Assembly: GCF_001411805.1 (NCBI RefSeq)
Contig: NZ_CP007213.1
Span: 3,472,001 to 3,536,000 of the forward strand
Length of the DNA: 64,000 bases
Direction of reading: 5' to 3'
DNA from: Burkholderia plantarii
Lineage (GTDB): Bacteria > Pseudomonadota > Gammaproteobacteria > Burkholderiales > Burkholderiaceae
Notes under the pieces: model-generated
What the model saw: the letters and a program-made list of their open reading frames with translations, nothing else
Told to the model about the DNA's origin: nothing
Databases searched by the model: none
Shown: piece after piece, positions 9,606 through 54,100 of the stretch
How positions within the stretch are numbered: position 1 is the first letter of the stretch
How the letters are laid out: every line of letters begins with the position of its first letter
Made by a program: the position numbers and the translations under genes

Positions 9606-10382
9606 TCATGTTTCACATCTCGATGATAGCGGCAGCCCATGACATGGTTGGACACCCCGACATGCACCGAGGCGAATCGCTGCAGTTGAACCTCCGATTT
9701 GAACCTCCGATTTGAACCGTCGCATCGCCTTCTCGCGCACGCGAGCCGGCCGGTGCGAATGCTCGGCGCGGCTGCGGATCGGCCCGAAACTCGTGAGGAA
9801 AGCCCGAGCGCGCTTCGGGTCGCGAAATCCCCGCATGCGTCGCTCGCGTTTGCGGATCCGCTGATGGCTGTTCTCTGCGCGGTCGTTCACGCGGGCAGCG
9901 GCCTTCACGAACACCTGCCTGACGGTGGCGAGCGCCGGGATGCCAGCCTTGGCGGCCGGGTAGCTGCGTAACGGGCCGGTGACGATCTCGCGCGGTGCCG
10001 GAAAGGAACACAGCACACGCTGGAAAAAGCGCTTCGCTGCGGCCTTGTCGGGCCGTTTCCGCGGCAGGACATCCGGCTCGGCACCGTGTTCGCCGACCGC
10101 CCGCCACAGCAGCCAGGGCTCGCCACGCAGATTCACCGACATCGGGGCCGGATGCGCGGTGCGGCCCCGCTGTCGTTGCGCAGCCTTGACCCGCCCGGCG
10201 AGGGCCGCACCGAATTTGTCGTACCACCGGAGGGTCGTTTCGTAGCTGGCGATCACGCCGCGCTCGAATCGCGGCTCCTCGATGACGCGCGGGCTCGGCG
10301 GGAAGCGGAAATGCCAGCGGAGCGCCTGGCTGATGATCGCAGCGGGGAATCGATAGCCGTGGTGGAGCGCCTTCGGTTTCAT
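9606..10382 (-). pseudogene. Dead IS6-family transposase remnant
   Basis: The frame starting MKPKALHHGYRFPAA at 10382 follows the standard IS6-family layout: N-terminal helix-turn-helix, RGEPWLLWRAV, KAAAKRFFQRV, and NDRAENSHQ. Two of the three DDE catalytic residues are gone. Where active relatives have WHLDEVF this copy has HPAPMSV, and where they have VTDQLRSY it has VTGPLRSY. The catalytic Glu in RAENSH remains. The region after FGPIR has also drifted. I could not find clear terminal inverted repeats. This is a relic, incapable of transposition, and a sign of old element activity between the kinase and the diguanylate cyclase. Confidence 0.78.
9688..9713. repeat. 13-bp tandem duplication in the IS6 remnant tail
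   Basis: The unit GAACCTCCGATTT is repeated twice without a gap, followed by a partial third copy (GAACC). It lies near the degenerate 3' end of the transposase relic and looks like replication slippage. Confidence 0.75.
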
Positions 10383-10580
10383 CGCCGCATCTTCCGCGAC
10401 CACACCCGCCGACGTGACAGCGCCGATTCGGGCACGCCCGCCCTGGCCCGGCGCTTGACATCGACCGCCCCCCCTGGGCAGACACGATCGCGTATATTAA
10501 TTTCATGGTTTATCGGCCGTTAACACCGACTGCCGTGGCAATGCCGCGCGTTGATTCGTTGGCTTTCATCTGAAGAGAGT

Positions 10581-15483: not shown

Positions 15484-16650
15484 TCAGGTCGAGTAGTCGG
15501 CGTTGATGCTGACGTATTCGGCCGACAGATCGCAGCCCCATACGGTCGCCCGGCCCGCGCCGCAGCCGAGCTCGACGGCCACCCGCACCTGCTCGGCGCG
15601 CATCACGGCCGAGAGCCGATCGAGGTCGGCGGCATCGAGCCGCCGCGGATAGACCTCGATGTCGCCGAACGCGATGCGCACGCGCTCGGGCACGATCGAG
15701 GTGTCCTGCTCGCACTTGCCGATCGCCATCGCCACGCGCCCCCAGTTCGGGTCCGCGCCGTGGATCGCCGTCTTGACGAGCGGCGAGTTGACGATGGCCT
15801 TGGCCACGCGCTTGGCCTGCGCGTCGTCGAGCCCGCCCGCCACGTCCACCTCGAGCAGCTTGGTCGCGCCCTCGCCGTCGCGCGCGATCTTCTTGACGAG
15901 CCCGAGCGCCAGCTCGTGCAGGCGCGCCTCGAATTCGGCCTCGTCGACGGCGCCGGCCAGGCCGTTCGCGAAGATCACGGCGGTATCGCTGGTCGAGGTG
16001 TCGGTGTCGATGCTCAGGCAGTTGAAGGTGGCGTTCACGACCTTGCGGAAGATCCGGTCCAGCGTGGCCTGCGGCACGGCCGCGTCGGTGAAGAAGAAGG
16101 TCAGCATGGTCGCCATGTTCGGCTCGATCATGCCCACGCCCTTCGCGACGCCGACCAGCGTGGCCTCGCCGATCCTGGCATGCACGTACTTCGACACGGT
16201 GTCGGTGGTCATCATCGCGCCGGCGATCCCGGCGAAGTCGCAGCCCGCCGCGGCCGGCTCCAGCGCCTCGACGAAGCCGCGCACCTTCTCCATCGGATAG
16301 GCGCGCCCGATGATGCCGGTCGACGCGACCAGCACGTCACGCGCACCGAGTTCGAGCCTGGCGGCCACGCGCTCGGTCAACTCGACGGCATTGGCCATGC
16401 CCTGCTCGCCGGTGGCCACGTTGGCGTTCTTCGACACCACCACCACCGCGCGCGGCCGGCCCTCGGCCAGGTAGCGCCGGCTCAGCTTGACGCTCGGCCC
16501 CGCGAACAGGTTCTGGCTGAACATGCCCGACACCGTGCAGGGCGCGCTCGAGAACACGCAGGCGAAATCGTTCGTCGCGTCCTTGATGCCGATGTTGCCG
16601 ACCAGCGTCTTGAATCCCGCCGGCTGCGGGACACCGCTTTCTGATTCCAT
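15484..16650 (-). CDS. argJ: Ornithine acetyltransferase, ArgJ/OAT2-like, in carbapenem operon
   Basis: This 388-residue Ntn-fold enzyme starts MESESGVPQPAGFKT at 16650. ArgJ proteins cleave themselves at Ala-Thr and use the new N-terminal Thr to move an acetyl group between N-acetylornithine and glutamate. The cleavage site is clear (KGVGMIEPNMATML, Ala180/Thr181), and the oxyanion residues Thr111-Gly112 are present. As I recall, these numbers are identical in OAT2 of the Streptomyces clavuligerus clavulanate cluster. Long blocks such as SIDTDTSTSDTAVIFANGLAG and the C-terminus VWGCDLSAEYVSIN also resemble OAT2 more than housekeeping ArgJ. It is last in the operon, 68 bases after the transporter gene. 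Confidence 0.88.
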   Translation of the reverse strand: MESESGVPQPAGFKTLVGNIGIKDATNDFACVFSSAPCTVSGMFSQNLFAGPSVKLSRRYLAEGRPRAVVVVSKNANVATGEQGMANAVELTERVAARLELGARDVLVASTGIIGRAYPMEKVRGFVEALEPAAAGCDFAGIAGAMMTTDTVSKYVHARIGEATLVGVAKGVGMIEPNMATMLTFFFTDAAVPQATLDRIFRKVVNATFNCLSIDTDTSTSDTAVIFANGLAGAVDEAEFEARLHELALGLVKKIARDGEGATKLLEVDVAGGLDDAQAKRVAKAIVNSPLVKTAIHGADPNWGRVAMAIGKCEQDTSIVPERVRIAFGDIEVYPRRLDAADLDRLSAVMRAEQVRVAVELGCGAGRATVWGCDLSAEYVSINADYST

Positions 16651-16718
16651 CGTGGGAGCTCCCAGGTTCCGTTTTTTTGGAGCGCAACGATAGCACAGCC
16701 GAACCGCCGTGCCGGCGG

Positions 16719-17657
16719 TCAGCCGCCGGCACGGCGCGCCTCGCGCGCCTTCCCCAGCAGCACCACGTTGAGCCCGACCACCACCGCGGCCAGCCCGGCC
16801 AGTTGCCGGCCCGTGAGCGGCTCGCCGAGACACAGCGCGGCCAGCGCGCTCGCGAACGCGGGGATCAGGCAGTTGAACTGGGCGCCGACCACGCGGCCCA
16901 TCCGCTCGATGCCGTGGTCGTAGAGCAGGTAGGCCGCGACCGATGCCGGGATCCCCAGGTACAGCAGCTGCAGGCCGAGCCGCAGGTCCGGCACGCGCAT
17001 GCCGTGCGCGGCGACGTCGTAGGCGAAGCCGGGCAGCAGCATCAGCGTGGAGACGAGCGACATGACGAACAGCGTGGTGACCGTCGCCATGCCCTCGCAG
17101 CGCGTCACGCGCATCGAGTACCACGACCAGCACAGCATCGCCAGCGCGGCGCAGCCGAGGCCGGCCCACGACGCGGCGCCGGCCGCCGCGACGCGGCAGA
17201 CCAGCGCGACGCCGGCCAGCCCGAGCGCGATGCCGAGCATGATGGCCGGCGCGGGCCACGCGCGCCGCCGCCACGCCTCCATCACGGTGACCGTCAGCGG
17301 TGTCATGCCGATGATCACCGACACCTCGCTCGCCGGCAGCATCGCCAGCGCGTAGTACTGCAGCAGGTGATAACCGGCCATCCCGCAGGCGCCGCCGACC
17401 CACAGCCGGCCCAGGTTGGGCCGCACCCGCGGCCACTCCAGCCGGATCAGCCGGTGGCCGGCCAGGTAGAAGCCGAGCGTCGCCACGCTCCAGCGGAAGA
17501 AGGTGAGCTGGAGCGGGTCGTAGGCGTCGCGCAGGCCGCGGCCCACCACGGCGTTGCCGGCCCACGCGAGCGTCGCGAGCACGAGCCCGGCGCAGGGCAG
17601 CAGCCAGTGGATCGGCGCCGGCGTGAACGCGGCGGAAGTCATGCGCTGGTCGGACAT
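16719..17657 (-). CDS. EamA/DMT family transporter, candidate carbapenem exporter
   Basis: This 312-residue inner-membrane protein has about ten hydrophobic helices in two EamA repeats. The first begins LVLATLAWAGNAVVGRG; the second includes AALAMLCWSWYSMRV and ends GEPLTGRQLAGLAAVVVGLNVVLLG. Drug/metabolite transporters of this type export small metabolites and amino-acid derivatives. Its position inside the operon, 49 bases after carC and 68 before the OAT gene, makes product export or self-protection a reasonable role. That is inference. The start at 17657 could also be the Met five codons later (17642); neither has a strong ribosome site. Confidence 0.85.
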   Translation of the reverse strand: MSDQRMTSAAFTPAPIHWLLPCAGLVLATLAWAGNAVVGRGLRDAYDPLQLTFFRWSVATLGFYLAGHRLIRLEWPRVRPNLGRLWVGGACGMAGYHLLQYYALAMLPASEVSVIIGMTPLTVTVMEAWRRRAWPAPAIMLGIALGLAGVALVCRVAAAGAASWAGLGCAALAMLCWSWYSMRVTRCEGMATVTTLFVMSLVSTLMLLPGFAYDVAAHGMRVPDLRLGLQLLYLGIPASVAAYLLYDHGIERMGRVVGAQFNCLIPAFASALAALCLGEPLTGRQLAGLAAVVVGLNVVLLGKAREARRAGG

Positions 17658-17706
17658 GGCGGACCCGGTGAGAGCGGAAAGGGAGGGGGCGGCGGGCGCG
17701 GCGCGC

Positions 17707-18576
17707 TCAGCCGAGCATGCGTTCGTCGTCGGCGAAGATCACCGGCGACTCCGAGGTCTGGCCGCGCCACAGCACGCGTCGCGACGCTTCCTCGCGGAAC
17801 GGCTCGCGCTCGTGCAGCGTGCGGCGGTTGTCGCTGATCAGCAGGTCGCCGGTGCTCCAGTAGTGCGCGTAGGTATAGGTGTCGCGCCGCAGGAACTTGC
17901 CCAGCTCGTCGAAGAACTTGCGCGTCTCGAACGCGCTGAAGCCGGTGATGCGCGTTTCCCAGCTCGGCGCGTCGCCGTTGTCGAACGGAAAGTAGATCAT
18001 CAGCGCGCGGACCCAGCCGTAGTCGCGGAACGTGTCCACCTTGAACCAGCCCTCGGGCGAGGCGCCCGAGTAGTAGCCGGCCTCGGCCGCGCGCACCTCG
18101 AAGGTGTCGTGCTCGAGCACGGCACGCAGGTGGCGCGGCATGTCCCGCAGCGCCGCCACGTGGTCGGTCACGAGCGTGGCGCCGCTGAAGCGCAGGTTCT
18201 CGATCTCGGCGCCGTACAGGAAGATCTGGTCGACGTTGCTGCGCAGGATGCCGCCATCGGTATGGAACGGCAGCCGGCCGCGCCCGGTGACGATCTTGTC
18301 GCGATCGCCGTTGAGCTCGAGCATGTCGCCGTAGCCGTAGCCGACCTTGGCGCGCTGGCCGCTGTACTCGACCGGGTGGCCGTAGCGGCGATAGAGTTCG
18401 GCGAACTCGGGCTTGCCGAGCCGCAGGCCGCGCACCACGGCGAAGCCCTCGACCTTGAGCAGGTCGCGCAGGACCTGCGGTTCCATGGCGAGGAATTCAC
18501 CGGCCTGCAACGCGATGCCGATGCCCGATGGTGTGAGCCGGCCGGACGGGAGCGACGGGAATGCGGATTGATTCAT
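17707..18576 (-). CDS. carC: CarC-like carbapenem synthase, Fe(II)/2-oxoglutarate dioxygenase
   Basis: The 289-residue protein starts MNQSAFPSLPSG at 18576. CarC uses iron and 2-oxoglutarate to invert C5 of the carbapenam and then desaturate C2-C3, the last step to (5R)-carbapen-2-em-3-carboxylate. The iron ligands are His105, Asp107 (LPFHTDGG) and His255 (NRRTLHERE); the 2-oxoglutarate-binding Arg271 is in WRGQT. Each is shifted by four from Pectobacterium CarC (101/103/251/267, from memory). Shared stretches include KIVTGRG, VDQIFLY and YWSTGDLLI. An automatic pipeline would call it TauD/TfdA dioxygenase; its carA/carB neighbours decide the role. It lies 91 bases after carB. Confidence 0.92.
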   Translation of the reverse strand: MNQSAFPSLPSGRLTPSGIGIALQAGEFLAMEPQVLRDLLKVEGFAVVRGLRLGKPEFAELYRRYGHPVEYSGQRAKVGYGYGDMLELNGDRDKIVTGRGRLPFHTDGGILRSNVDQIFLYGAEIENLRFSGATLVTDHVAALRDMPRHLRAVLEHDTFEVRAAEAGYYSGASPEGWFKVDTFRDYGWVRALMIYFPFDNGDAPSWETRITGFSAFETRKFFDELGKFLRRDTYTYAHYWSTGDLLISDNRRTLHEREPFREEASRRVLWRGQTSESPVIFADDERMLG

Positions 18577-18667
18577 GATGGGTCTCGGTAAAGGTTCCGG
18601 CGCCGACGCGCGGCGCGCGGAACGCGAACGGAAAATCGCGGCGGCGGGCGCGGCCCGCCGCGCGCGC

Positions 18668-19456
18668 TCATTGCGCGGCGGCCGCGCCCTGGTACTTCGC
18701 CCCGAGCACGCGGGCGAAATGCTGTTGCGCGCTGCGGTCGGTGAACGCCACGCGATGCACCGCCTTCGAGCGGTCGGCCGTCTCGTGGAGCAGGTCGAGC
18801 AGCCCCTGTCCCACCGCGACCTTGGTGGCGCGCCACGAGGCGCGCGGATAGCCGGCCAGCTGGCGCGCCACCGCCTTCGCGCGCGCCAGCAGCAGCGGCG
18901 GCTCCACCAGCTCGTTGACGAAGCCGAAGTCCCTGGCGCGCGCGGCCGGGATGCCGTCGCACTCGTAGATGATCTTCTGCATCGTGCTGAAGCCCACCAC
19001 GTAGTTGAGGATCGTGCCGCCCATCGAGCAGCCGATGCCGTGGCGCAGCTCCGGCATGCGGAATTCGGCGCGCGTGGCGACCACGCGCCAGTCGAACATC
19101 AGCGCGAACTGGAAGCCCATGCCGATCGCGTAGTGATCCACGGCGGCCACGGTCGGCTTCGAGACGCGCAGCACCGCCGCGTAGAGTTCGGTCACGCGGT
19201 CGATCCAGCGGTCCACGTCGTCGCCGCCCGTCAGGTTCTTGACCTCGTTGAAGTCGCCACCCGCGCTGAACGAGCGGCCCTCGCCGCCCGTCACGACGAT
19301 CGCGCCCACCGTGTCGTCCTGGTCCGCCTCGCGCAGCGCGCGGCGGATGCTGTCCTCCATGGCCGCGCTGAACGGGTTGTTGCGGCTCTCGTGATCGAGC
19401 GTGATGACGCGAATGCCGTCCTCGTCCGCGATCTTCACCAGCGTGGTCTCGCTCAT
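18668..19456 (-). CDS. carB: CarB-like (2S,5S)-carboxymethylproline synthase (crotonase fold)
   Basis: This 262-residue crotonase-family enzyme starts MSETTLVKIADEDG at 19456. CarB joins malonyl-CoA to L-pyrroline-5-carboxylate, with decarboxylation and thioester hydrolysis, to give carboxymethylproline. The oxyanion-hole loop RSFSAGGDFNEVK, the second glycine in AIGMGFQFALMFD and the catalytic Glu136 in MPELRHGIGCS all match Pectobacterium CarB, offset by five residues (Glu131 there, from memory). The ATG overlaps the carA stop as ATGA, with a GGGAGG ribosome site inside the end of carA, so translation is coupled. A generic 'enoyl-CoA hydratase' label would miss the role. Confidence 0.93.
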   Translation of the reverse strand: MSETTLVKIADEDGIRVITLDHESRNNPFSAAMEDSIRRALREADQDDTVGAIVVTGGEGRSFSAGGDFNEVKNLTGGDDVDRWIDRVTELYAAVLRVSKPTVAAVDHYAIGMGFQFALMFDWRVVATRAEFRMPELRHGIGCSMGGTILNYVVGFSTMQKIIYECDGIPAARARDFGFVNELVEPPLLLARAKAVARQLAGYPRASWRATKVAVGQGLLDLLHETADRSKAVHRVAFTDRSAQQHFARVLGAKYQGAAAAQ

Positions 19457-20943
19457 TTCGGGTCGCCTCCCGGTTCGCCTTCGCCGTTCAGGTAGCGCAT
19501 GTACTTCTCGTAGCTGTAGCGCGTCTTCTGTTTGTAATCCTTAATTTCCGAGCCAATATGATCGGCGAAGATGGCGTTGACCGACGAACCCTCGTGGATG
19601 CCGATCTTCTTGCGCCAGACGATGCTGGCCGGCAGCAGCTCGCATTCCTCGGCGCATTCGCGCAGCGCGATCTTGACGTCGCGCGGCGAGAGCTTCAGCT
19701 CGGGCGCGAGGCTCGCGGCGAAGCCGATCACCTCGGGCCGCCAGAACGGATGCTGGACGTCGAGCCCGTAGGCGGCCGCGCCGAACGGCGAGAACTCGCC
19801 GGTCCAGCGGGTCCGGTAGATCTGCGCCCAGAGCCGGCCGTTGATGCCGTCGAGCGCGTCGTCATGGCCCAGCACGCCGCCGAACAGCAGGTCCGAGCCG
19901 TAGCCCGTCACCACGCGCGCGCGCGGCGTACCCACGCTGCGGTAGAAGCACATCAGCGTCGCCTGGATCTCGGCGGACAGGCCGTCGAAGATCTCGTTGT
20001 GATAGATCGCCTGGTCGATGCCGTCGAGGATGTCCTGCGTCGAGAAATCGATCTCGCGATGCCGTGTGCCGAGATGGTCGGCCACGATGCGCGCGAACGG
20101 AAATTCGTTGCTGCGTCCGGTGCCGAGCGCGAAGGTCTCGATGTCGCCGCGCCGGCGCGAGGCCAGCGAGGTCACCATGCTCGAATCGAGCCCGCCCGAC
20201 AGCGGCACGAAAATCCGGCTGTCGGTATCGACCGCGCCCTGCACCGTGCGCGTCAGCAGTTCGGCCATCCAGCGCTTCGCGGCGGGCGCGGCCAGTTGCT
20301 GCGCGCCGGCCAGGCGCGGCACGTGATAGCTGGCGAGGTCCGCGCTCGCGTGGCCGGCGCCGTCCACGAACAGGCGCATGCACGAGCCCGGCTTCAGGCG
20401 CCGCGCGTTGTCGATCGGCAGGTAGTCGTCCGGGCGCTCGTCGGTGGCGACCACCGCCCCGGCCGGATGGAAACGGAACACGCCGGGCTCCAGGCGGCCG
20501 ACCTGCTTGAGCTCCGAGCTGAGCCAGACGCGCCGGCCATGCACCACGTGCAGCGGCTGCATGCCGAGCGCGTCGTTGGCCGCGAACACGGCGTCCTCGG
20601 TGAACTCGAGGTAATTGAACGGACCGTCGACGAGCGCGAACGCGGACCTGCCGAGCGCCGTGTGCAGGATCCGGAACACGTGCGCGACCGACGCCGTGAC
20701 CGCGTTGCCGTCGTACACGGCCGCGATCGAGCGCAGCGCCGCGAGATTGGTGGGCGAGCCGAGCACGATGCACACGCGCCGGTCGATCGTCTCGATGCGT
20801 CCTTCGGACGACGCACCAGGCAGGCTGCGCACGACAATGTCCCAGCCGCGGGCATCGACGGCCTGCCAGGTGCCGGGCTCGAATCGCTCGAGCGCGCTCG
20901 CATGGCCGGCCGCCTGCCGGCATGCAATCAGTGAGTAGGTCAT
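19453..20943 (-). CDS. carA: CarA-like carbapenam synthetase (beta-lactam synthetase)
   Basis: The 496-residue protein belongs to the asparagine-synthetase-derived beta-lactam synthetases. These adenylate carboxymethylproline with ATP and close the beta-lactam ring. The N-terminus MTYSLIACR lacks the Cys at position 2 that asparagine synthetases need for glutamine hydrolysis. The pyrophosphate loop is SGGLDSS (249-255). Tyr348 (TGYGSDLLFGG), Glu383 (YRTRWTGEF) and Lys446 (WRKKIGIHEGSSVN) fall exactly three residues after the catalytic Tyr345, Glu380 and Lys443 of Pectobacterium CarA (from memory). The block NEIFDGLSAEIQ is also shared. The start overlaps the kinase stop as ATGA and has an AAGAGGAA ribosome site. 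Confidence 0.95.
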   Translation of the reverse strand: MTYSLIACRQAAGHASALERFEPGTWQAVDARGWDIVVRSLPGASSEGRIETIDRRVCIVLGSPTNLAALRSIAAVYDGNAVTASVAHVFRILHTALGRSAFALVDGPFNYLEFTEDAVFAANDALGMQPLHVVHGRRVWLSSELKQVGRLEPGVFRFHPAGAVVATDERPDDYLPIDNARRLKPGSCMRLFVDGAGHASADLASYHVPRLAGAQQLAAPAAKRWMAELLTRTVQGAVDTDSRIFVPLSGGLDSSMVTSLASRRRGDIETFALGTGRSNEFPFARIVADHLGTRHREIDFSTQDILDGIDQAIYHNEIFDGLSAEIQATLMCFYRSVGTPRARVVTGYGSDLLFGGVLGHDDALDGINGRLWAQIYRTRWTGEFSPFGAAAYGLDVQHPFWRPEVIGFAASLAPELKLSPRDVKIALRECAEECELLPASIVWRKKIGIHEGSSVNAIFADHIGSEIKDYKQKTRYSYEKYMRYLNGEGEPGGDPK

Positions 20944-21776
20944 GGTCGAGATTCCTCTTCAAGTTCGACGTTGGGGTTCGAGGGGATGAAACGGTGCGGC
21001 GGGGGCGGCACGATCCAGGTACCGAGACGTTCGCCGGCGACGATGCGGCCGAGCGCGCCGGGCTCGTAGCGCGTGATGACGGTGGTCGCGCCGCCGTTCG
21101 CGGCCGCGCGCGCGGCGTCGATCTTCGATTTCATGCCGCCGGTGCCGGTGGCCGTCGGCGCCGGCGAGGCCGCCGCGTGCAGCCGCGCGTCGTCGGCCGC
21201 CACCGTGCCGAACAGCGGCGCGTCGGGGTTCACGCGCGGGTCGGCGTGATAGACGCCGGGCCGGTCCGTGAAGATGATCAGCTTCGACGCGCGCAGCAGC
21301 CCGGCCAGCGCCGCGCTCAGTTCGTCGTTGCTCGGGAAGCCGGCCACCGCGGCGGTCGCGTCGTTCTCGTTGACGAGCACGATCGCGTCGCTCGCCGACA
21401 GCGCGCCGATCGCCTCGGCCAGGTGCGTGCGGGTCGGCCCGCAGCGCAGGTCGTCGGCCTTCAGCAGCATCTGCGCGGCCCGGTGGCCGTGCGGCGCGAG
21501 GCATTGCGCGAACGCGGCCATCAGGTGGAGTTGGCCGATCGCGGCCAGTCCGGCGCGCGGCAGCGCCGCCTCGCCCGGCGCCCCGCCGCCGCGCGCCACG
21601 CCCAGTTGCACGGCCCCGGACGTCGTCACCACCGGACGCAGCCCGCGCGCGCGCAGCGAGCGCAATTCCGCGCACAACGCGGCGATCAGGCCGAGGTTGG
21701 GCCGGTTCGCCTGCGTGAGCGTGCTGGTCCCGAGTTTGATGACGACGCTCGACGCGTCATGGTCTGTCTGCTTCAT
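20940..21776 (-). CDS. Glutamate 5-kinase-like protein without PUA domain, operon-specific
   Basis: This 278-residue amino-acid kinase starts MKQTDHDASSVVIKLG at 21776. Glutamate 5-kinase makes gamma-glutamyl phosphate, the first step towards pyrroline-5-carboxylate and proline. Motifs present include VIKLGTSTLT, TTSGAVQLG, AAIGQLHLMAAF, VNENDA, FTDRPGVYHADPR and TGTGGMKSKIDAA. Housekeeping ProB is about 370 residues with a C-terminal PUA domain; here the protein ends after the kinase domain. In a carbapenem operon its likely job is to raise pyrroline-5-carboxylate supply for CarB, perhaps free of proline feedback. It lies 26 bases after luxR and overlaps carA by four bases. Confidence 0.9.
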   Translation of the reverse strand: MKQTDHDASSVVIKLGTSTLTQANRPNLGLIAALCAELRSLRARGLRPVVTTSGAVQLGVARGGGAPGEAALPRAGLAAIGQLHLMAAFAQCLAPHGHRAAQMLLKADDLRCGPTRTHLAEAIGALSASDAIVLVNENDATAAVAGFPSNDELSAALAGLLRASKLIIFTDRPGVYHADPRVNPDAPLFGTVAADDARLHAAASPAPTATGTGGMKSKIDAARAAANGGATTVITRYEPGALGRIVAGERLGTWIVPPPPHRFIPSNPNVELEEESRP

Positions 21777-21802
21777 TTGGCGGCCCCGTTTCGCTCGGCT
21801 GG

Positions 21803-22564
21803 CTAGCACTGGATGATGCCGATGGCATTGGCGCGCGCAATCGCATGCGCGCGGGTCTTGACCTTCAATTTGCGCAGGACGTTCTCGATGTGGAAATTGA
21901 CGGTGCGCTCCGTCACCATGAGCGTGCGGGCGATTTCCACCGAGGTCTGCCCCTCGCTGGCCTGGATCAGCACCTGCCGTTCGCGGCTGGTCAGCTTGGC
22001 GGTGGAACACAGCGGCGCGGCCAGCGCGATCTGCGCGACGAAGGCGTCGTGCGCCACCGCCAGAATCGGAAACAGCGTCATGGCGAGCGTAATCACCTCG
22101 CCGTCGCTGATCGAACCGCGCCGCCGCGCCACCGAAAACAGGCTGAGCGTGCCATTCGGCCCGCGAAACGGAAAGGTGATGCCGTGGCACAGTCCGGCGC
22201 GGAATGCGGCGCGATACAAGACCCGGCGTTTTCGATAATGCAGACGCGACCATTTAACCGGCATGCAGGCGTGAATGGCTTCGCGAAAAATCGGATCGGC
22301 ATTATTTTCTATCGAATCGAGATAATCACGGATCCAGGTGTTTGAAAAGGTATCGAGCGCGGTGGTGCGCCACTCTCCGTCCGCCGATTTGCCGCGCACC
22401 CAGTAGCTGCAGAAATCGAAATCGAGCTGGCCGATGCTGGCCGCGAGAATATCGAATATCGCCGGCATGCTTTTCGCCTGTCGCAATCCGACAAAATTGC
22501 CCAGCAGCGAAGATAAAGAAGGCGCCGGCGCATTCCCGCGTGCATATTCGCTAAAATTAGACAT
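21803..22564 (-). CDS. LuxR-type quorum-sensing regulator of the carbapenem operon
   Basis: The 253-residue protein starts MSNFSEYARGN at 22564. The N-terminal acyl-homoserine-lactone domain keeps all six near-invariant residues: Trp77, Tyr81, Asp90, Pro91, Trp105 and the Gly of CHGIT (128). The C-terminal helix-turn-helix (about 190-250) has LTSRERQVLIQASEGQTSVEIARTL and VNFHIENVLRKL. Lactone binding is therefore expected, as for CarR in Pectobacterium. No luxI-type synthase is in the window, so it is a solo or is paired with a distant synthase. It is the first gene of the operon and sits just behind a lux box. The region near 22210-22560 looks poorer in GC than its neighbours, hinting at transfer. 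Confidence 0.92.
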   Translation of the reverse strand: MSNFSEYARGNAPAPSLSSLLGNFVGLRQAKSMPAIFDILAASIGQLDFDFCSYWVRGKSADGEWRTTALDTFSNTWIRDYLDSIENNADPIFREAIHACMPVKWSRLHYRKRRVLYRAAFRAGLCHGITFPFRGPNGTLSLFSVARRRGSISDGEVITLAMTLFPILAVAHDAFVAQIALAAPLCSTAKLTSRERQVLIQASEGQTSVEIARTLMVTERTVNFHIENVLRKLKVKTRAHAIARANAIGIIQC

Positions 22565-22636
22565 TTTATGAGATCGCTTCTGGTTGGCCGCTCGTTTTTC
22601 TTGCCGCGAATAGTGGCATAGGCAAAGCCGTTTCAT

Positions 22637-22656
22637 ACCTGTCAAAATTCACAGGT
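22637..22656. promoter_or_regulatory. Lux box with embedded -35 element upstream of luxR/car operon
   Basis: ACCTGTCAAAATTCACAGGT is a 20-base perfect dyad: ACCTGT, eight bases, ACAGGT. Length and half-sites match the classical lux box. On the operon strand it contains TTGACA, a consensus -35 hexamer (22640-22645). The -10 region 17 bases further (CCTATG) is weak, as expected for an activator-dependent promoter. It lies 72 bases upstream of the luxR start, so LuxR with bound lactone would activate its own gene and the whole car operon. Confidence 0.85.
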
Positions 22657-22852
22657 CAATTAAAAGCAAAATCGTTGTATTGGCCTCGATGATTAAAAGA
22701 GTTAGAAAAATGAAAATCGGCGACACATCACGTCGCGCTGTCGCGGCTGGCCCGCGCGCCACCCCCGAGGCGGGCTGGACGCGCCGCGGCGAAGTGCGCG
22801 GGGCCGGTGACGGCGCAACGGAATGGAAGCTCGGCGACCTCGAATCGACTCA

Positions 22853-22868
22853 TTCGAATCGATTCGAA
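22853..22868. promoter_or_regulatory. 16-bp perfect palindrome TTCGAATCGATTCGAA
   Basis: The dyad is perfect over 16 bases and ends sharply. CGAATCGA is repeated directly at 22841-22848 and 22855-22862. It could be an operator, but no obvious target gene starts nearby. Confidence 0.35.
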
Positions 22869-23243
22869 AATCACAAAATCGGGAAGAGATAATGCGTGGC
22901 GCGTGGCGCGGATATCCAATCGCGCAGCCATAGTCTCAATCTCGCGACACTGGATGGCATCGATGCCGGAAATTCGCGGAACGCGGGCCGGGAGCGTGGA
23001 GGTGGGGCGTGGAGGTGGAGAGGTGCCGGGGCGCGGATCGGGGCCGCGCCGCGATCAGGCATGCGAAACGATCGGCGGGGGTGCCGGGTACGCCCGAGCG
23101 CGGGAACACGGCAGCGGGCGCGCAACCGCGTGGCGGCGGCCCCGGCCGCCGGCATGCGGGGCTTCGATCGCGGCTTTGATCAGCGTCACGATCGGTCGTG
23201 GACGCGCCGGCAAGCGGCTCGCGCCGTCGCGACGGCGCGCGGG

Positions 23244-23637: not shown

Positions 23638-24849
23638 TCACACCAGCCGCACCGGCAGGCTGCGCAGCCCGCGGAACGACAGGCTCTCGGTGCGCCGCGC
23701 CTGTTGCGCGTCCACCTCGATGCCGGGATACAGCGCGGCCAGCGAGGTGAACACGATCTGCGCCTCGATGCGCGCGAGCAGCGCGCCGAGGCAGGTATGC
23801 ATGCCGTGCCCGAACGACAGCACGCGCGACACGGGCCGCCGCACGTCGAGCGTGTCGGGCGCCGCGAAATGGCGCTCGTCGCGGTTCGCCGCGCCGAGCA
23901 GCGTGTAGACATAGGCGCCCTTCGGCAGCCGCTGCCCGCCGAGTTCGACGTCCTCAAGCACGGCACGCCCGGTCAGCTGCACTGGCGCGTCGAAGCGCAA
24001 CAGCTCGTTGACGGCGGCCGGCGCGATGGCGGGGTCGTCGGCCAGCAGCCGCCATTGCTCGCGCTCGCGCGACAGCGCGAGCAGGCCGTTGCCGAGCAGG
24101 TGGGTGGTGGTGGCGTGCCCCGCCGCGAGCAGCAGGATCAGGTTCGCGATCAGCTCGGACTCGTCCAGGCGGTCGCCGGCTTCCTCGGCCGCGAGCAGGT
24201 CGCTGAGCATGTCGTCGCCCGGCTCGCGCCGGCGCTCGCGAATCAGCTCCGCGAAATACGCGCCGAACGCGGCGATGCCGGCCTCCGCGCGCGCCGTCTC
24301 CGCGTCCGACAGCACCCGGCCGCTGATCACGCTGCCGAACGCGAGCGACCAGTCGTGCAGCTGCGCATGCGCGTCCATCGGCACGCCGAGCACCAGCGCG
24401 ATCACCATCACCGGCAGCGGCACCGCGAACTCGCTGACGAAGTCGATCGTGCGCCCCGCCTGGGCCGCCAGCATCCGGTGCGCGAGCGCCTCGATGCGCG
24501 GCCGGAAGGTGTCGAGCCGGCGCGGCGTGAAGGCCTTCGCGAACAGCTTGCGCAGCCGCGTGTGATCGGCGCCGTCGAGGAACAGCATCTGCTTCGACAG
24601 CGTGCGGCGGATCGCCTGCTCGGTGCGGCTCTCGTCGTCGATGCCGCCCAGCCGCGCCGCCGAGAAACGCGCGTCGTCGAGCACCGCCACCACGTCGGCG
24701 TGACGCGAAACGATCCAGCCGTTGCCGTTCGGGTCCGCGTGGACCGGGCTCTCGTCGCGCAGGCGGCGGTACAGCGGATAGGGATCGGCACGCCAGCGCG
24801 GCTGGAACAGATCGTAGAGGGAAACCTGCTGAATCTCGGGATCGGACAT
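23638..24849 (-). CDS. Cytochrome P450 (bacterial, soluble)
   Basis: The 403-residue enzyme starts MSDPEIQQVSLYDLF at 24849. It has the I-helix oxygen-activating motif LLAAGHATTTHL, the ExxR pair in NELLRFDAP, and the heme-thiolate loop LSFGHGMHTCLGALLAR with its Cys ligand. It has no membrane anchor, so electrons would come from ferredoxin and a reductase, neither of which is next to it. The family resembles P450s of natural-product oxidation. It is 2 kb from the carbapenem operon but has its own regulator and an operator-like palindrome upstream, so membership in the cluster is uncertain. Confidence 0.92.
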   Translation of the reverse strand: MSDPEIQQVSLYDLFQPRWRADPYPLYRRLRDESPVHADPNGNGWIVSRHADVVAVLDDARFSAARLGGIDDESRTEQAIRRTLSKQMLFLDGADHTRLRKLFAKAFTPRRLDTFRPRIEALAHRMLAAQAGRTIDFVSEFAVPLPVMVIALVLGVPMDAHAQLHDWSLAFGSVISGRVLSDAETARAEAGIAAFGAYFAELIRERRREPGDDMLSDLLAAEEAGDRLDESELIANLILLLAAGHATTTHLLGNGLLALSREREQWRLLADDPAIAPAAVNELLRFDAPVQLTGRAVLEDVELGGQRLPKGAYVYTLLGAANRDERHFAAPDTLDVRRPVSRVLSFGHGMHTCLGALLARIEAQIVFTSLAALYPGIEVDAQQARRTESLSFRGLRSLPVRLV

Positions 24850-24983
24850 GGGGGGCTCCGGACTGCCGAAAGAGGAGGGTAAGCGAATCGTCGGGCGGTA
24901 CTTCACCAGCGTTGACGATCCTACGCGAGCGGCACGGCGGTGTCTCGCGCCGCGTGTTTCAACCTATTTCACATTGCCATTTT

Positions 24984-48012: not shown

Positions 48013-49245
48013 ATGGCCTCCCAACTTTCGTGGCTCGATCACGACGCCGCTGCGACGCAACGCAGCCTGCAAATTCTGTCGATCTTCAACGAACCGGACG
48101 CGCGCGACGAACTCGGCATCGGTGGCATCCGGGATGCAATCGCCGATCAGCTTTTTCCCGGCACGTCGACCATCCAGACGCGCCTTCGCTATGTGTTCTT
48201 CATACCGTGGCTGATGGAACGGCTCGAAGCGCGCAACACCCGATCCTCGGCGTTCAAGGCGGCCACGCGCGACGCCGAACTCGAACTACTCGAAGCTCTG
48301 GTCGCCAATACCAGGCAGGACGAACCCGGCGTGATCGGCAGGGAAAAACGCGAGGCGCTCAAGCGCTTCCCGAGTTCCGTCTATTGGGCCGCGCTCGGCA
48401 GTTGGGGCTTGCGCCGCGTCAGCGGCTCGCAGCAACAGTACTATGCACAGGCCGACCGTCGGCACACGCAGCGCAATACGCGACGTACCCGCGACGATCA
48501 CGAAACGCACGACGGCGACAACAGCGGCCTCGCATGGGATCGCCAACTCATCAAATTGCGCCCGGAAGGCTTCCCCGCCGGCGCCGATCTTCGCCTGACT
48601 CGCGGTGAGGCGGAACTGCTGCTCGATCGCTGGACCTTGCGTCACGGTCGATCGCTGCTGACCTGGATCGCCAAAAACCTTGCAGCCGGCAGCGCGGCAC
48701 CCGTCGACGTCGACCAGATCTGGGCACATCCGCAAAAGGACGCATTTCCGGACGAGATTCGCCTGCTGGTCGACGATGCACAGCGGTTGAACGTATTGAT
48801 TCGTGGCGCTGCCTTGCTCTACAACCTCGAACTCGCCCGCCTTTCTCCGTCGTCGGCGACGATCGCCTCCGATCGTGCGAAAGACCTCGCCGAATGGGCC
48901 AAACGGGATCTGTCGATCTGCAGCGGCTGGGATCTCGGCGAGTTCTGGAAGCGCGTGCTCGATCAAGGCCATACCATCACGCTGGCGACGCAGACTTTTC
49001 TCGCCACGTGGCTCGCACTAGCCTTGCGAGATCGCGATGATATCGGCGCATCTATGGATTGCCGCCAGCTTATTCGTGATCGCGAGATTAGCCTGAAGCG
49101 CAAGGGCAACCGTTCCCGTTTCGAAAATCGCGCGGCCCGCGATCAATGGAGCGGCAACGCGGGGCTCATGCCGCTCAGTTATCGATGGCCCGTCGCGTCC
49201 GATTTTCTTCGCGAATGGTATGCGGGATGGAGCAACGCGCAATGA
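48013..49245 (+). CDS. DUF6361-like protein, first gene of a putative antiphage operon
   Basis: The 410-residue protein starts MASQLSWLDHDAAATQ at 48013, with GGGA upstream. The N-terminal pattern SWLDH, then DELGIGGIRDAIADQLFPGTSTIQTRLRYVFFIPW, is the hallmark of the DUF6361 family as I remember it. No catalytic motif is visible. Its stop overlaps the ATG of the next gene (ATGA), so the products are made together. The combination with a phospholipase-D-like protein and a helicase points to phage defence. Base composition looks lower in GC than the flanks, consistent with transfer. Confidence 0.78.
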   Translation: MASQLSWLDHDAAATQRSLQILSIFNEPDARDELGIGGIRDAIADQLFPGTSTIQTRLRYVFFIPWLMERLEARNTRSSAFKAATRDAELELLEALVANTRQDEPGVIGREKREALKRFPSSVYWAALGSWGLRRVSGSQQQYYAQADRRHTQRNTRRTRDDHETHDGDNSGLAWDRQLIKLRPEGFPAGADLRLTRGEAELLLDRWTLRHGRSLLTWIAKNLAAGSAAPVDVDQIWAHPQKDAFPDEIRLLVDDAQRLNVLIRGAALLYNLELARLSPSSATIASDRAKDLAEWAKRDLSICSGWDLGEFWKRVLDQGHTITLATQTFLATWLALALRDRDDIGASMDCRQLIRDREISLKRKGNRSRFENRAARDQWSGNAGLMPLSYRWPVASDFLREWYAGWSNAQ

Positions 49246-51104
49246 TCAACCCTGAACAACGCAGCCTGTTGACCGATGCGCTCACCCCTCCCGATAATTA
49301 TCGGTTCGACTGCGGCGTGGCAACCACCTATTCGCTCGATTTGGTCACGCTGCTGACCTTGCCGCTGCATCTCGCACGACGCGATGTCGAAGCCGCGTCG
49401 CCGGAGCAGTTCGACCCGCTGCCAGTGCTCGATGCAGTGCGCCGCATGGGCGATCGATTGACGATCTTCTGCCAACGCGGCCGCCTGCACATTCCGCGCA
49501 AGGCCAATGCCCTGTTCGGGCTACTCGAGAACATGGTGCAGGAAACGCAGGCGCCGCACGAGCGCGGCGTATTCCATCCAAAGGTGTGGCTGCTACGCTT
49601 CGAGCCCATCGACGCCGCGGCCCGGGGCGGCCCGATGCTGCGCCTGCTCGTGCTCACACGCAACCTGACCGACGACCGCTCGTGGGATCTCTCGCTCTGG
49701 CTCGAAGGCGAACCAGGCCGGAAGCGCGTCGATGCGAGCCGGCCGCTCGTGTCGTTTCTCGAGTGGTTGACACAGAGCAACGAGGCGAGTATCGGCACGG
49801 CGCGTACTGCCCAGATCAGGCAGTTGCAAGACGATGCCGGCCGCACGATTTGGACGCCGCCCGGCAAGTTCGAAGCCGTGCGGTTTCATCCTCTCGGCAT
49901 TGGCAAAAAGACGGCGACCTGGCTCCCCAAGGCCGGCAACGGTGCACTCTGGGACGAGTTCGGTGTGATCTCGCCATTCGTTTCTACGGAAGCCTTGGCA
50001 CGGCTGGTGTCACTCACCAAGTCATCGCTGTTTCTCGTGTCGCGTGCCGAGGAATTGGACAAATGTGCGTCGCAGGACAACTTCGGGACGGTGCACGTGC
50101 TGAGCGACCAGGCACTCTCAAGCGATAGCGAAGACGACATCGCCCATCGGCAGCGTGGCCTGCATGCGAAGGCCTATATCGGCAAACGCGCCTGGAACAC
50201 ACATCTGTTCGTGGGCTCGGCCAATGCCACCGATGCGGCGCTCGTGGATGGCCGCAACGTTGAGTTCGTGGTCGAGTTGATCGGCCGCGGGAGCAAGGTC
50301 GGCGGTCCTGCCGACTGGATCGGCGAGGAAGGGCTCGGGCCGTTGCTCGCCGACTACGAGCGCTCGGAACCGGAGGACGCTGATGCCCTCAAGGATCAAC
50401 GCGCGCTGGAGTCGCTGCGCGATGCGCTAACGCGCGCGCCTCTGGCGTTGCACTGCAGGAAGGCCGAGTCGGGCTGGCGCGTCGACTTGCACGGCCTCGA
50501 CCGTATCCATTGGGCTGGCGCGTCGGCGCAGGCATGGCTCGTGTCGCAGGACGAGAAGGCATGGGCACGGCCGATCGATGCGGCCCGGCGGGATGCCGCC
50601 ACTGAATCGTGCCCCGGTGTCCAGCTCGGGGAGTTAGCATCGCATCAGGTGACCGCGTTCACGGGATTCACGCTCGTGATCGGCCAGGCGACGCTGAGTT
50701 TCGTACTCAAGCTGCCTCTGCACGGCGGTCCGGAAGAACGCGACCTGGAAATCCTGCACGCGGCGATCCGCAATCGCGAAGGTCTGATCCGCTATCTGTT
50801 GCTGCTGCTGGGGGACTGGAACGACAGCAACAGCAGCGGCGATGGCGACGCAACCAAGGTCGGCCGCGATTACGGCGCCCTCTTCGATACGCCGCTATTC
50901 GAAATGCTCGCGCGAGCTTATGCGCACGAGCCCGAGCGCCTAGTGCGGGTCCGTGATCTCGTCGAACGGCTACGCCGGAAATCCGCATCGGAACAGGAAC
51001 ACGGCGTCGAGCCGGCCAGTGCGGAAGACCCGATTCTCACCGAGGATTTCCTTGAGGTCTGGTCGGTATTTGAAGCAGCGTTGAACAACGAGAACCGCCA
51101 ATGA
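49242..51104 (+). CDS. Phospholipase-D-like nuclease-type protein of the defence operon
   Basis: This 620-residue protein starts MINPEQRSLLTDALT at 49242, coupled by ATGA to the preceding stop. Two HxK half-sites of the PLD superfamily are present. One is FHPKVWLLRF followed by LVLTRNLTDDRSW (residues about 116-155); the other is LHAKAYIGKRAW followed by FVGSANATDAAL and NVEFVVE (about 305-345). In bacterial defence such domains usually cut nucleic acid. The C-terminal half is unfamiliar. The stop overlaps the helicase start, again as ATGA. Confidence 0.82.
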   Translation: MINPEQRSLLTDALTPPDNYRFDCGVATTYSLDLVTLLTLPLHLARRDVEAASPEQFDPLPVLDAVRRMGDRLTIFCQRGRLHIPRKANALFGLLENMVQETQAPHERGVFHPKVWLLRFEPIDAAARGGPMLRLLVLTRNLTDDRSWDLSLWLEGEPGRKRVDASRPLVSFLEWLTQSNEASIGTARTAQIRQLQDDAGRTIWTPPGKFEAVRFHPLGIGKKTATWLPKAGNGALWDEFGVISPFVSTEALARLVSLTKSSLFLVSRAEELDKCASQDNFGTVHVLSDQALSSDSEDDIAHRQRGLHAKAYIGKRAWNTHLFVGSANATDAALVDGRNVEFVVELIGRGSKVGGPADWIGEEGLGPLLADYERSEPEDADALKDQRALESLRDALTRAPLALHCRKAESGWRVDLHGLDRIHWAGASAQAWLVSQDEKAWARPIDAARRDAATESCPGVQLGELASHQVTAFTGFTLVIGQATLSFVLKLPLHGGPEERDLEILHAAIRNREGLIRYLLLLLGDWNDSNSSGDGDATKVGRDYGALFDTPLFEMLARAYAHEPERLVRVRDLVERLRRKSASEQEHGVEPASAEDPILTEDFLEVWSVFEAALNNENRQ

Positions 51105-54100
51105 CACGCAAGATCGAGACAGGCACGTCCATTACCGGCCTAAAGGATTTTCAGAAGCTGACGGTCGACTACGTCTTCGAGCGCATGTTCGACGCTACGG
51201 AACCGGCCATGCGTTTTCTCGTCGCCGACGAAGTCGGTCTCGGCAAGACGATGATCGCGAAGGGTTTGATTGCACGCACCATCGAGCAGCAAGTGCAAAT
51301 ACATCAGCGTATCGATATCGTCTACGTCTGCTCGAATGCGGAAATCGCCGCGCAGAATATCAAACGGCTGGCACTGCCGGGCGTATCGAACGTATCGAAA
51401 GCCAACCGGCTCACGCTGTTGCCGAAGCATACGCAGGATCTTTGCGACCATGCCGTGAACCTGATCAGCTTCACACCGACCGTGGCCTTCGGTGCGAAGA
51501 GCGGGGGCGGCATGCGTACCGGACGCAAGGAAGAACGGCATCTCATCTATCAGATGCTGCTCGATCTGCCAGGCGTGCGCGTGCGTGGCCTGCGTCGCGC
51601 GCTACGCGCGACGGCGGGCGACTCTTGGGATCTCGATGCGCAACAGCCCGTCGAAGGCGGCTACGACGAAGCCATCGCGGCCGCGTTTCGCGACGCCATC
51701 CTGCGCGACGAGGCTCTCTACCGGGAACTGTGCGATATCGCGGAACATCGTGCCGATCGGCGCAGGAAGATCGTCGGGGAAGATCGCGAACGGAGCAACG
51801 CGCTGATCGGCAACCTGCGCAGACTGCTGGCACAGACCTGCCTCGTCGCGTTGCAGCCCGCGCTCGTCATTCTCGACGAGTTTCAGCGCTTCAACGATCT
51901 CTTCGACGATCCCGACGAAACCGACAATCCCGCGGCCGAACTCGCGCACCAGCTGTTCAACTACAAAGGCCGCGCGCGCGTGCTGCTTCTGTCCGCGACG
52001 CCCTACAAGATGTACGCGCGCGACGACGAGAGCGAGGATCATTACGCGGATTTCCTGCGCACACTGCAATTCCTGTATCCCGGCCAGCCGGGAAAGATCG
52101 AGGCCTTGAAGCACGATATTAGTGCGTTACGCGTCGGGCTTCTGGGCGCGACGGCTCCCGACGATCTTGCCAGGCTGACGCCGGTGAAGGCGCGCATCGA
52201 ACAGACCTTGCGCCACGTGATGTGCCGGACAGAGCGCGTCGAAGCCACGCGGCGCGCCGACGCGATGGTCGGGGACCGGTTGCTCGTGCCACGCCTGCAT
52301 CCCGGCGATCTCGCCGACTTTCGCATGCTGGAGGCGCTGGCCCGCACGCTCGATGAGCCGGACACCATCGAATACTGGAAGTCGAGTCCGTACCTGCTCA
52401 ATTTCATGCGCGACTATCGATTCAAGACGTCGCTGCAGGACCGGATCGCGTCGCAGCGCACGCTTTCGCCGATCCTCGATGTGTTGGCGAAGCATCGACC
52501 CACCACCTTCGACGCGCACGACGTGGAGTGCTATCGCAGGATTGATCCGGGCAACGCCCGCCTGCGCACCCTCATCGAGCAAATCGATCAGGACAATCTG
52601 TGGAAGCTGCTCTGGATGCCCCCGTCGCTCGGCTACTGGCGGGCCGGCGGTGACTACGAAGAGGTCGGCTCGATCAGCAAGCGGCTGGTGTTCTCGGCCT
52701 GGAACGTGGTGCCGGATGCGGTTGCCGCGATGCTGTCCTTCGAGGTCGAACGCCGGCTCACGGAACACGTCGAGCGCCGGCCCTCCTACGTCAAGATGAC
52801 CGAGCGCTTCAGCGCGAGCTTGGTATTCAAGCGCAGCGGTGGTGAGCCGGCCGGTATGGCAACCCTGCTGCTGGCGTTTCCGTCGCAGGCGCTGGCATCA
52901 CTCGTAGACCCGCTCGCCTGGTCCACCGAGACCGATTCCACACCGTGCTACGCCGATCTGCACCAATCCGCGATAGCGTCGATCGAAACGGCCATCACCC
53001 CGCTCGTCGAGCATCGCGTCAACGAGGGGCCATTCGACCGGCGCTGGTACTGGGCGACGCTCGCGCGTCTCGAAGCGCGCCGCCATCCCGAAGCGCGGGC
53101 ATGGTGCGAATCCGGCTGGGCGGCTTCGCGCAACACGAGCGACGGCACGGAGGAGGATTCGGCCAGCGCGTTCGGTGATCACGTCGCTCGCTGGTTGCTC
53201 GCGTGGGACGGCAAGTTCGACGACCTGGGCCGCGTGCCCGACGATCTGGCGGCAGTGCTCGCGCATGTCGCACTCAATGCCTCCGCAACCTGTGCGCTGC
53301 GAACACTGATGCGTCGCTGGCCGCACGCGCAGGCGCCCGAGGCCATGCTCAGCGCCGCCGCGCGAATCGCGGAAGGCATGCGGAGCCAGTTCAACTCGCC
53401 GCATGCGGTGGCCCTGCTGAAATCCTTCGAGAAAGACGAGGATTCGTACTGGCAACGTGTGTTGCAATATGGCGCCGACGGCAACCTGCAGGCGCTGCTG
53501 GATGAATATGCGCACATCCTCTTCGATGCCAACGGGCTTGCCGATGATGGCGTCGACGAAGGCTGTCGAAAGTTGGGCGATGCGATGTTCGAAGCGATGT
53601 CGATGCGCAGCGCGACCCAGCATCCCGACGAACTTGACGTGCAGGACGGCGTCGTATCGATCAAGCCATTCACGACCGGCATCCGGACGCATTTCGCATT
53701 GCGCTTCGGCCAGGTGAGCCAGGAAGACGGTGCGATTGCGCGAAAGAAAACGGTCCAGGCCGCGTTCAACTCACCGTTCTGGCCGTTCGTGCTGACGTCG
53801 ACATCGATCGGCCAGGAAGGCCTTGATTTCCACCACTGGTGCCACTCGGTCATTCACTGGAATCTGCCGTCAAATCCGGTCGACATGGAACAGCGCGAAG
53901 GGCGCGTGCATCGCTACAAGGGTTACGCGGTGCGCAAGAACGTGGCGCTCAGGCATGGGCACGTCGCGCTACGGCGTGCGCACGGCATGCACGGCGACGT
54001 CTGGAGCACGCTGTTCGCGTTGGCCATCGAGAGCCGGCCGGCCAACGCCAACGACCTGATTCCGTTCTGGATCTACGAAGTCGAAAACGGCGCGCAGATC

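Follow-up and report, generated by a model that had tools for sequence, protein, structure and literature searches.

In Pectobacterium carotovorum and its enterobacterial relatives, the car cluster (carR and carA to carH) has its core genes in the order carA-carB-carC, and in Pectobacterium and Prodigiosinella a LuxR-type regulator lies nearby. Relatives of CarA and CarB, presumably ThnM and ThnE, are also found in the thienamycin cluster of Streptantibioticus cattleyicolor. That cluster lacks a close CarC homologue (PMC6097109). In Streptomyces clavuligerus, bls2, cas2 and oat2 stand together, and the precursors of clavulanic acid and the clavams are arginine and glyceraldehyde 3-phosphate (PMC6382702, in part). 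Here we analyze a 64,000-nucleotide stretch of Burkholderia plantarii DNA (NZ_CP007213.1, 3,472,001–3,536,000; hereafter the window, whose own positions are used throughout) from a genome of 8,081,051 bases in 3 contigs. An operon within it shares the enterobacterial carA-carB-carC order, the active sites and the linked LuxR-type regulator, and very probably encodes CarABC-type carbapenem biosynthesis, with (5R)-carbapen-2-em-3-carboxylate as its predicted product.

The operon occupies positions 15484–22656 of the minus strand and comprises, in order of transcription, a lux box followed by seven genes, all with open frames:

22637–22656, no strand assigned: perfect lux-box dyad, ACCTGTGAATTTTGACAGGT, found by pattern search
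21803–22564, minus strand: luxR-family regulator, 253 amino acids, acyl-homoserine lactone (AHL)-binding type (Autoind_bind and GerE domains)
20940–21776, minus strand: proB-like glutamate 5-kinase, 278 amino acids, kinase domain only (AA_kinase)
19453–20943, minus strand: carA, carbapenam synthetase, 496 amino acids (CarA 1q15; CarA_N Pfam domain)
18668–19456, minus strand: carB, carboxymethylproline synthase, 262 amino acids (CarB 2a7k)
17707–18576, minus strand: carC, 2-oxoglutarate (2OG)-dependent carbapenem synthase, 289 amino acids (CarC 1nx4)
16719–17657, minus strand: EamA/DMT-family transporter, 312 amino acids, candidate exporter (EamA)
15484–16650, minus strand: argJ-like ornithine/glutamate N-acetyltransferase, OAT2 type, 388 amino acids (1vz6)

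The edges of the operon are thus the outer edge of the lux box (22656) and the end of the argJ-like gene (15484). The proB-like gene and carA overlap by 4 bp, as do carA and carB, and the remaining gaps, calculated from the coordinates, are 26, 91, 49 and 68 bp. From luxR to the end of argJ the coding strand shows no terminator-like site; those found on that strand lie at 22736 and 15131.

Comparison of the core proteins by phmmer with the sequences of solved structures revealed wide margins. CarA scored 342.6 bits against 1q15, as compared to 130.5 bits against the beta-lactam synthetase 1jgt and at most 77.1 bits against asparagine synthetases; CarB scored 293.4 bits against 2a7k, 185.6 bits against the CarB homologue 5o34 and at most 88.8 bits against other crotonases; and CarC scored 316.1 and 315.8 bits against 1nx4 and 4oj8, the next family reaching 36.1 bits. 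The E values against the Pectobacterium enzymes (3.3e-101, 1.5e-86 and 2.6e-93 for CarA, CarB and CarC) lie far beyond chance, and the carA product has a CarA_N Pfam domain (42.4 bits). These margins clearly reject ordinary AsnB, crotonase and TauD enzymes as the nearest characterised relatives, of which asparagine synthetases and crotonases had been named as grounds for refutation when a carbapenem operon was first proposed for this DNA (hereafter the original prediction), and strongly support a CarABC-type operon, whose product itself is predicted.

The order carA-carB-carC on the minus strand, named in the original prediction, is borne out by the open frames, and the phmmer alignments reproduce the constant active-site offsets that it had given: firstly, Tyr348, Glu383 and Lys446 of CarA align with Pectobacterium residues 345, 380 and 443 (+3); secondly, Glu136 of CarB aligns with residue 131 (+5); thirdly, His105, Asp107 and His255 of CarC align with residues 101, 103 and 251 (+4). 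Position 2 of CarA is a Thr, which agrees with the stated absence of the glutaminase Cys, and CarC has two further active-site residues, Tyr169 and Arg267 (Tyr165 and Arg263 in Pectobacterium). In Pectobacterium numbering, the metal ligands His101, Asp103 and His251 are kept in 50/50 aligned CarC sequences, as are Arg263, which binds 2OG, and Tyr165, proposed to donate hydrogen (these roles follow PMC6097109, in part); the 50 include the window's, and some are near-copies of one another. The Tyr and Glu of CarA were kept in 106/107 and 107/107 CarA-like rows, as compared to 1/12 each in AsnB-like rows (our label for the 12 lowest-ranked of 113 matches), a count that omitted four matches shorter than 400 amino acids and 11 of the 21 loci and that drew on a FastTree tree with long-branch warnings, used only for residue counts and nearest neighbours. 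By these features the three proteins are a CarA-type enzyme with the Tyr/Glu pair and no glutaminase Cys, a CarB-type carboxymethylproline synthase, and a CarC-type 2OG oxygenase with HxD...H and the equivalents of Arg263 and Tyr165.

Window CarA and CarB are 41% and 55% identical to their Pectobacterium counterparts, as compared to 33% (over 47% of CarA) and 41% for the S. cattleyicolor relatives. A thienamycin-type system, in which the presumed ThnM and ThnE would be nearest, was rejected because these identities are the lower ones, and no side-chain genes were recognised inside the operon. The S. clavuligerus clavulanic acid and clavam genes resemble the operon in that an AsnB relative forming a beta-lactam is grouped with a 2OG oxygenase and an acetyltransferase of the OAT type, but they use other precursors and other enzymes, and window CarA is nearer to CarA than to beta-lactam synthetase.

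To place the operon among other car loci, we searched for CarC relatives and found 31 proteins at E ≤ 0.001, 30 of them close and one weak, with close carC relatives in Caballeronia, Paraburkholderia, Photorhabdus, Xenorhabdus, Providencia, Dickeya, Citrobacter, Vibrio and Pantoea. The rarity claimed by the original prediction, which held such operons to be described mainly from Pectobacterium, Serratia and Photorhabdus, was therefore overstated, all the more as a carbapenem-like cluster is already listed for this species in a published paper (see below). Within the genus, carC was found in 1/65 genomes, the window's own, at E ≤ 1e-20; within a sample of 398 genomes of the family, CarB was found in four at E ≤ 1e-60, its own included, with six candidates per genome scored among the rows listed.

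Twenty further loci were then compared with the window by tblastn (E ≤ 1e-4, within fetched flanks): three from Caballeronia, one from Paraburkholderia acidicola ATCC 31363, two from Vibrio and 14 from enterobacteria, of which two are metagenome bins. All 20 have carA, carB and carC together, 19 in the same order, and in three argJ stands between carB and carC. The enterobacterial and Vibrio loci have carD, carE, carF and carG in 16/16 cases and carH in 14/16; among the five Burkholderiales loci, the window's included, carD, carE, carG and carH occur in none and a carF relative in one (P. acidicola, 39%). Conversely, argJ is present in 5/5 Burkholderiales loci and 0/16 enterobacterial and Vibrio loci, a complementary pattern with carD-carH that is striking yet rests on one deep lineage split. 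Indirectly, by equal contig size among the matches compared, argJ can be paired with carA or carC in eight cases (contigs of 27,642; 31,546; 39,586; 117,009; 123,844; 132,684; 2,989,334 and 3,743,649 bases); three of these are B. gladioli, P. acidicola and the species of the window itself. On a Pantoea plasmid, kept outside these locus counts, carA, carB and carC are followed by proline dehydrogenase, 2Fe-2S and SUMF1-type genes.

The window thus differs from the Pectobacterium cluster in having proB-like, eamA and argJ-like genes and no relative of carD, carE, carF, carG or carH anywhere in its 64 kb (tblastn, E ≤ 1e-4). The different gene set that the original prediction saw around the core is confirmed, and its word "complete" holds for the three core genes and fails for carD-carH.

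A related gene set is that of P. acidicola (locus L009), where an autoinducer-domain regulator, carC, proB, carA, carB, eamA and argJ stand together; we found no description of this cluster among the papers searched. Identity to the window is 78% for carA, 80% for carB, 83% for argJ, 68% for eamA and 60% for proB. Since carA, carB and argJ share 78–83% but carC only 59%, from another position (upstream of proB) and in another clade, we infer that one lineage or the other has exchanged its carC; in a quick tree, the P. acidicola clade of 18 rows and the window's clade of six have Shimodaira-Hasegawa-like approximate likelihood ratio (SH-aLRT) supports of 96 and 100. The P. acidicola cluster also has a CarF-like gene, a Sel1-repeat gene and two genes of unknown function that the window lacks; a search of the B. 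plantarii genome with a 265-amino-acid P. acidicola protein of unknown function found no relative, although this search had no positive control. The Caballeronia loci (L008, L010 and L011) group carA, carB, argJ and carC as the window does and have no carD-carH relative; unlike the window, they place argJ between carB and carC, add a second crotonase and four further genes, and show no proB, eamA or luxR relative in the fetched flanks.

That second crotonase is a divergent CarB-like protein behind carC. Besides it, the Caballeronia clusters encode a conserved 267-amino-acid protein without a Pfam family, which is found in P. acidicola as well (both at L010, 11011–13129, with equivalents in L008 and L011).

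Together, these data show a real, intact-looking CarABC operon with a Burkholderiales-type set of helper genes under predicted quorum control. This reading is supported by the homology margins and kept catalytic residues of the core enzymes, the same-strand unit with its 4-bp overlaps and lack of internal terminator-like sites, the related P. acidicola gene set, a lux box unique in the genome with LuxI-family genes elsewhere, and the greater nearness of CarA and CarB to Pectobacterium than to S. cattleyicolor. By the chemistry of the known families, CarB would join malonyl-CoA to pyrroline-5-carboxylate (P5C) to give carboxymethylproline, CarA would close the beta-lactam ring using ATP, and CarC would invert C5 and desaturate C2-C3 to yield (5R)-carbapen-2-em-3-carboxylic acid, which EamA may export. 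A working operon would mean that a Burkholderia associated with crops produces a carbapenem with genes that are rare in its genus.

We next consider how the operon might be controlled. LuxR, scored from its second codon on, has Autoind_bind and GerE domains (73.6 and 61.3 bits). Its best solved relative is RhlR (91.6 bits), with which the AHL-pocket residues (a Trp, a Tyr, an Asp-Pro, a second Trp and a Gly) align. At 27% identity (61 bits) it is distant from Pectobacterium CarR and, as a further difference from that cluster, it stands first in its unit behind a perfect lux box. This 20-bp dyad ends 72 bp ahead of the luxR start codon (22564) and is the sole match in the window at up to two mismatches (0.42 expected from shuffles). 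Nor does the pattern match exactly anywhere else in the 8.08-Mb genome, in which three more sites have one mismatch and a reversed-pattern control gave one site; a simple expectation at G+C 0.6866 is 0.20 exact boxes per genome, or 2.4e-6 per 100 bp. The operon therefore has a linked LuxR-type activator with an autoinducer-binding domain and a lux box before its target, and on the strength of these features quorum control is a good prediction: as the presumed first gene of the transcription unit, the AHL-responsive LuxR would bind the box and turn the operon on at high density.

Four LuxI-family matches were found in the genome, all outside the window and one barely above the cut-off (27 versus 24). 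One luxI gene is itself preceded by a lux-type box (two mismatches, 62 bp before its start), which makes it plausible that this luxI and the operon's luxR have a signal in common. In a survey of luxR-linked clusters, beta-lactam clusters are the one class without an internal luxI (PMC5872303, in part), and the same holds here. The G+C content at the luxR end (22000–22999) is 0.576, as compared to ~0.67–0.72 over the biosynthetic genes, and luxR may on this account be of separate origin.

The helper genes offer clues to precursor supply. The ProB-like protein matches AA_kinase (127.9 bits) and, over its kinase domain, E. coli glutamate 5-kinase (126.6 bits); it is only 34% identical to the genome's other proB. 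Its role is probably precursor supply: the kinase would give glutamyl phosphate to the housekeeping ProA and so raise P5C, standing in for CarD and CarE. Because P5C is the direct substrate of CarB (PMC6097109, in part), CarD would be replaced most simply by a glutamate kinase. The transporter EamA (domain score 114.1 bits) has counterparts in the P. acidicola car locus, as given above, and in those of two Vibrio (23–24%).

The ArgJ-like protein has as its best solved relative the S. clavuligerus-type enzyme 1vz6, OAT2 (426.8 bits), and is nearer to this clavulanate-cluster acetyltransferase (57% identity) than to the genome's other ArgJ (42%), which rules against its having been copied recently from the housekeeping gene. 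The idea that OAT2-type proteins are peculiar to beta-lactam clusters was rejected as well: among 8000 candidates scored, 6970 proteins reached E ≤ 1e-90 (120 were listed). The ArgJ tree, like the CarC tree, was a quick one. With such proteins so common, likeness to a clavam gene is not enough to argue for shared descent by cluster transfer. More loosely, the OAT2-type ArgJ might increase the supply of ornithine or of some other precursor from the glutamate family. Precursor flow in polyoxin biosynthesis is raised by cluster-encoded PolN and PolP, an N-acetylglutamate synthase and kinase, and a mutant in either keeps partial production (PMC4029187, in part); PolN is from another acetyltransferase family, which makes this an analogy only.

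We tentatively propose, at a little under an even chance, that carbapenem operons of a second kind exist in Burkholderiales, where the P5C supply from proline by CarD and CarE is replaced by a glutamate-side module of the ProB-like kinase and/or the OAT2-type acetyltransferase, the same acetyltransferase type that serves clavam clusters. If this is true, OAT2 is a precursor gene common to two beta-lactam classes, and B. plantarii makes its product while lacking the CarF/CarG immunity pair. The altered helper genes make it testable how producers feed P5C to CarB without CarD, and what job the OAT2-type acetyltransferase does in both clavam and carbapenem clusters.

A number of results weigh against a working, quorum-controlled carbapenem operon. 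In the four other Burkholderiales car loci, no lux box was found at up to two mismatches, the best having three. The 64-kb window has no luxI, so that the "quorum-controlled" of the original prediction stands as far as the AHL-type LuxR and lux box predict it and finds no support from a signal synthase gene in the window. The ProB-like protein scored 170.8 with the NCBIfam proB model, under the cut-off of 186. None of the genome's 16 aminotransferase matches passed the ornithine-aminotransferase cut-off, a cut-off passed by only 1/14 control genomes, and the route from ArgJ through ornithine to P5C is for this reason weakened and uncertain. The carD/carE precursor-supply pair, present in 16/16 enterobacterial and Vibrio loci, has no relative in the window, to which the search for carD, carE and carH was confined. 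Finally, no recognised immunity gene of the carF/carG type was found in the window or by genome search, in which the P. acidicola carF relative and Pectobacterium carG had no match (a search without a positive control). Immunity might instead come from a chromosomal beta-lactamase, export or target insensitivity; the genome has three class A beta-lactamase-family matches, the best 149.8 bits at C2:1466027 and none in the window. A producer without CarF and CarG, if true, would represent another way to survive one's own carbapenem.

CarC itself raises the possibility of an altered product, because the window's subgroup (6/50 rows) differs in five or six of its six rows at 16 columns where the other 44 show 90% conservation or more, including the residue between the His and the Asp (Ala102 to Thr in 5/6 rows). 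These changes, the subgroup's separate clade and a P450 gene upstream on the same strand (23638–24906) would fit a modified or different beta-lactam, be it a stereoisomer, a carbapenam or, for example, a compound that this P450 or another neighbouring enzyme has altered. We regard this as unlikely, given that the metal, 2OG and Tyr165 positions are invariant across the 50 sequences, that no tailoring enzyme was recognised inside the operon, and that on reading the open reading frames beside the P. acidicola cluster no P450 was noticed (no P450 search was made).

A quite unlikely alternative to precursor supply is that the ArgJ-like and ProB-like proteins are resistant spare copies of antimetabolite targets. 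Both are as divergent from the genome's own copies as the identities above indicate (42% and 34%), and target-copy resistance is known for some antimetabolite clusters, but carbapenems hit penicillin-binding proteins and not these enzymes. The direct use of P5C by CarB likewise argues for supply (PMC6097109, in part).

Loss of function has also to be weighed. The absence of recognised carF/carG-type genes could indicate that the genes are silent or decaying and have stopped making an antibiotic; this is very unlikely, as the seven frames are open, the catalytic residues are intact and the set seems kept over divergence, with, among the matches listed, CarA 99% identical in a record probably of B. 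plantarii KACC 18964 and CarA, CarC and ArgJ 84–85% identical on contigs of equal length labelled B. gladioli. That an asparagine synthetase, an enoyl-CoA hydratase and a TauD enzyme of primary metabolism adjoin by chance, as the broad Pfam names of the single proteins alone might imply, is refuted by margins of at least 200 bits over such enzymes, by the residue swaps typical of CarA and by the 20/20 other loci that keep carA, carB and carC together.

A carbapenem-like cluster in B. plantarii has already been flagged by software in print, and the operon, with its Burkholderiales-type helper set, is a variant on known carbapenem operons. For B. plantarii KACC 18964, section 3.3.1 of a 2024 paper places a beta-lactam cluster called by antiSMASH on chromosome II, and a separate sentence gives a "cluster 13" 16% similarity to the Pectobacterium carbapenem cluster (PMC11153758). 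We infer that both are the operon described here; that section holds nothing on the cluster's genes, regulator or product. Among the titles listed in searches of the open-licence literature, none concerned a functional study of such an operon in Burkholderia.

Upstream of the operon stand the P450 gene, a TetR regulator and a catalase-family gene, and downstream a LysR regulator and an isochorismatase-family gene. We left these outside the operon; a role for the P450 is possible. An IS240-type transposase domain is encoded at 9606–10403 on the minus strand, ~5 kb from the operon.

More distant relatives of the core proteins were also observed. Four proteins of 738–805 amino acids (P0123, P0125, P0126 and P0114) fuse AsnB/CarA-like and crotonase/CarB-like domains; P0123 is labelled Brachionus plicatilis, a rotifer, which could reflect gene transfer to an animal or contamination. 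A CarA relative with 48% identity (P0048) is labelled Microcoleus, a cyanobacterium. On a Streptomyces decoyicus plasmid (L047, 7500–10458), TauD, AsnB-like and CarB-like genes adjoin beside adenylation-domain genes, the CarB-like one 45.5% identical to window CarB, and plasmids of Rhodococcus fascians and Acinetobacter indicus (H2, H4-H6, H31-H33 and H37) carry distant CarC-like and CarB-like genes within ~2 kb.

Elsewhere in the window, two adjoining plus-strand genes (49146–54358) match PADLOC ZacB (568 bits) and ZacC (1071 bits). They are a candidate anti-phage defence pair, and their third-position G+C (0.76 and 0.79) is below that of most window genes.

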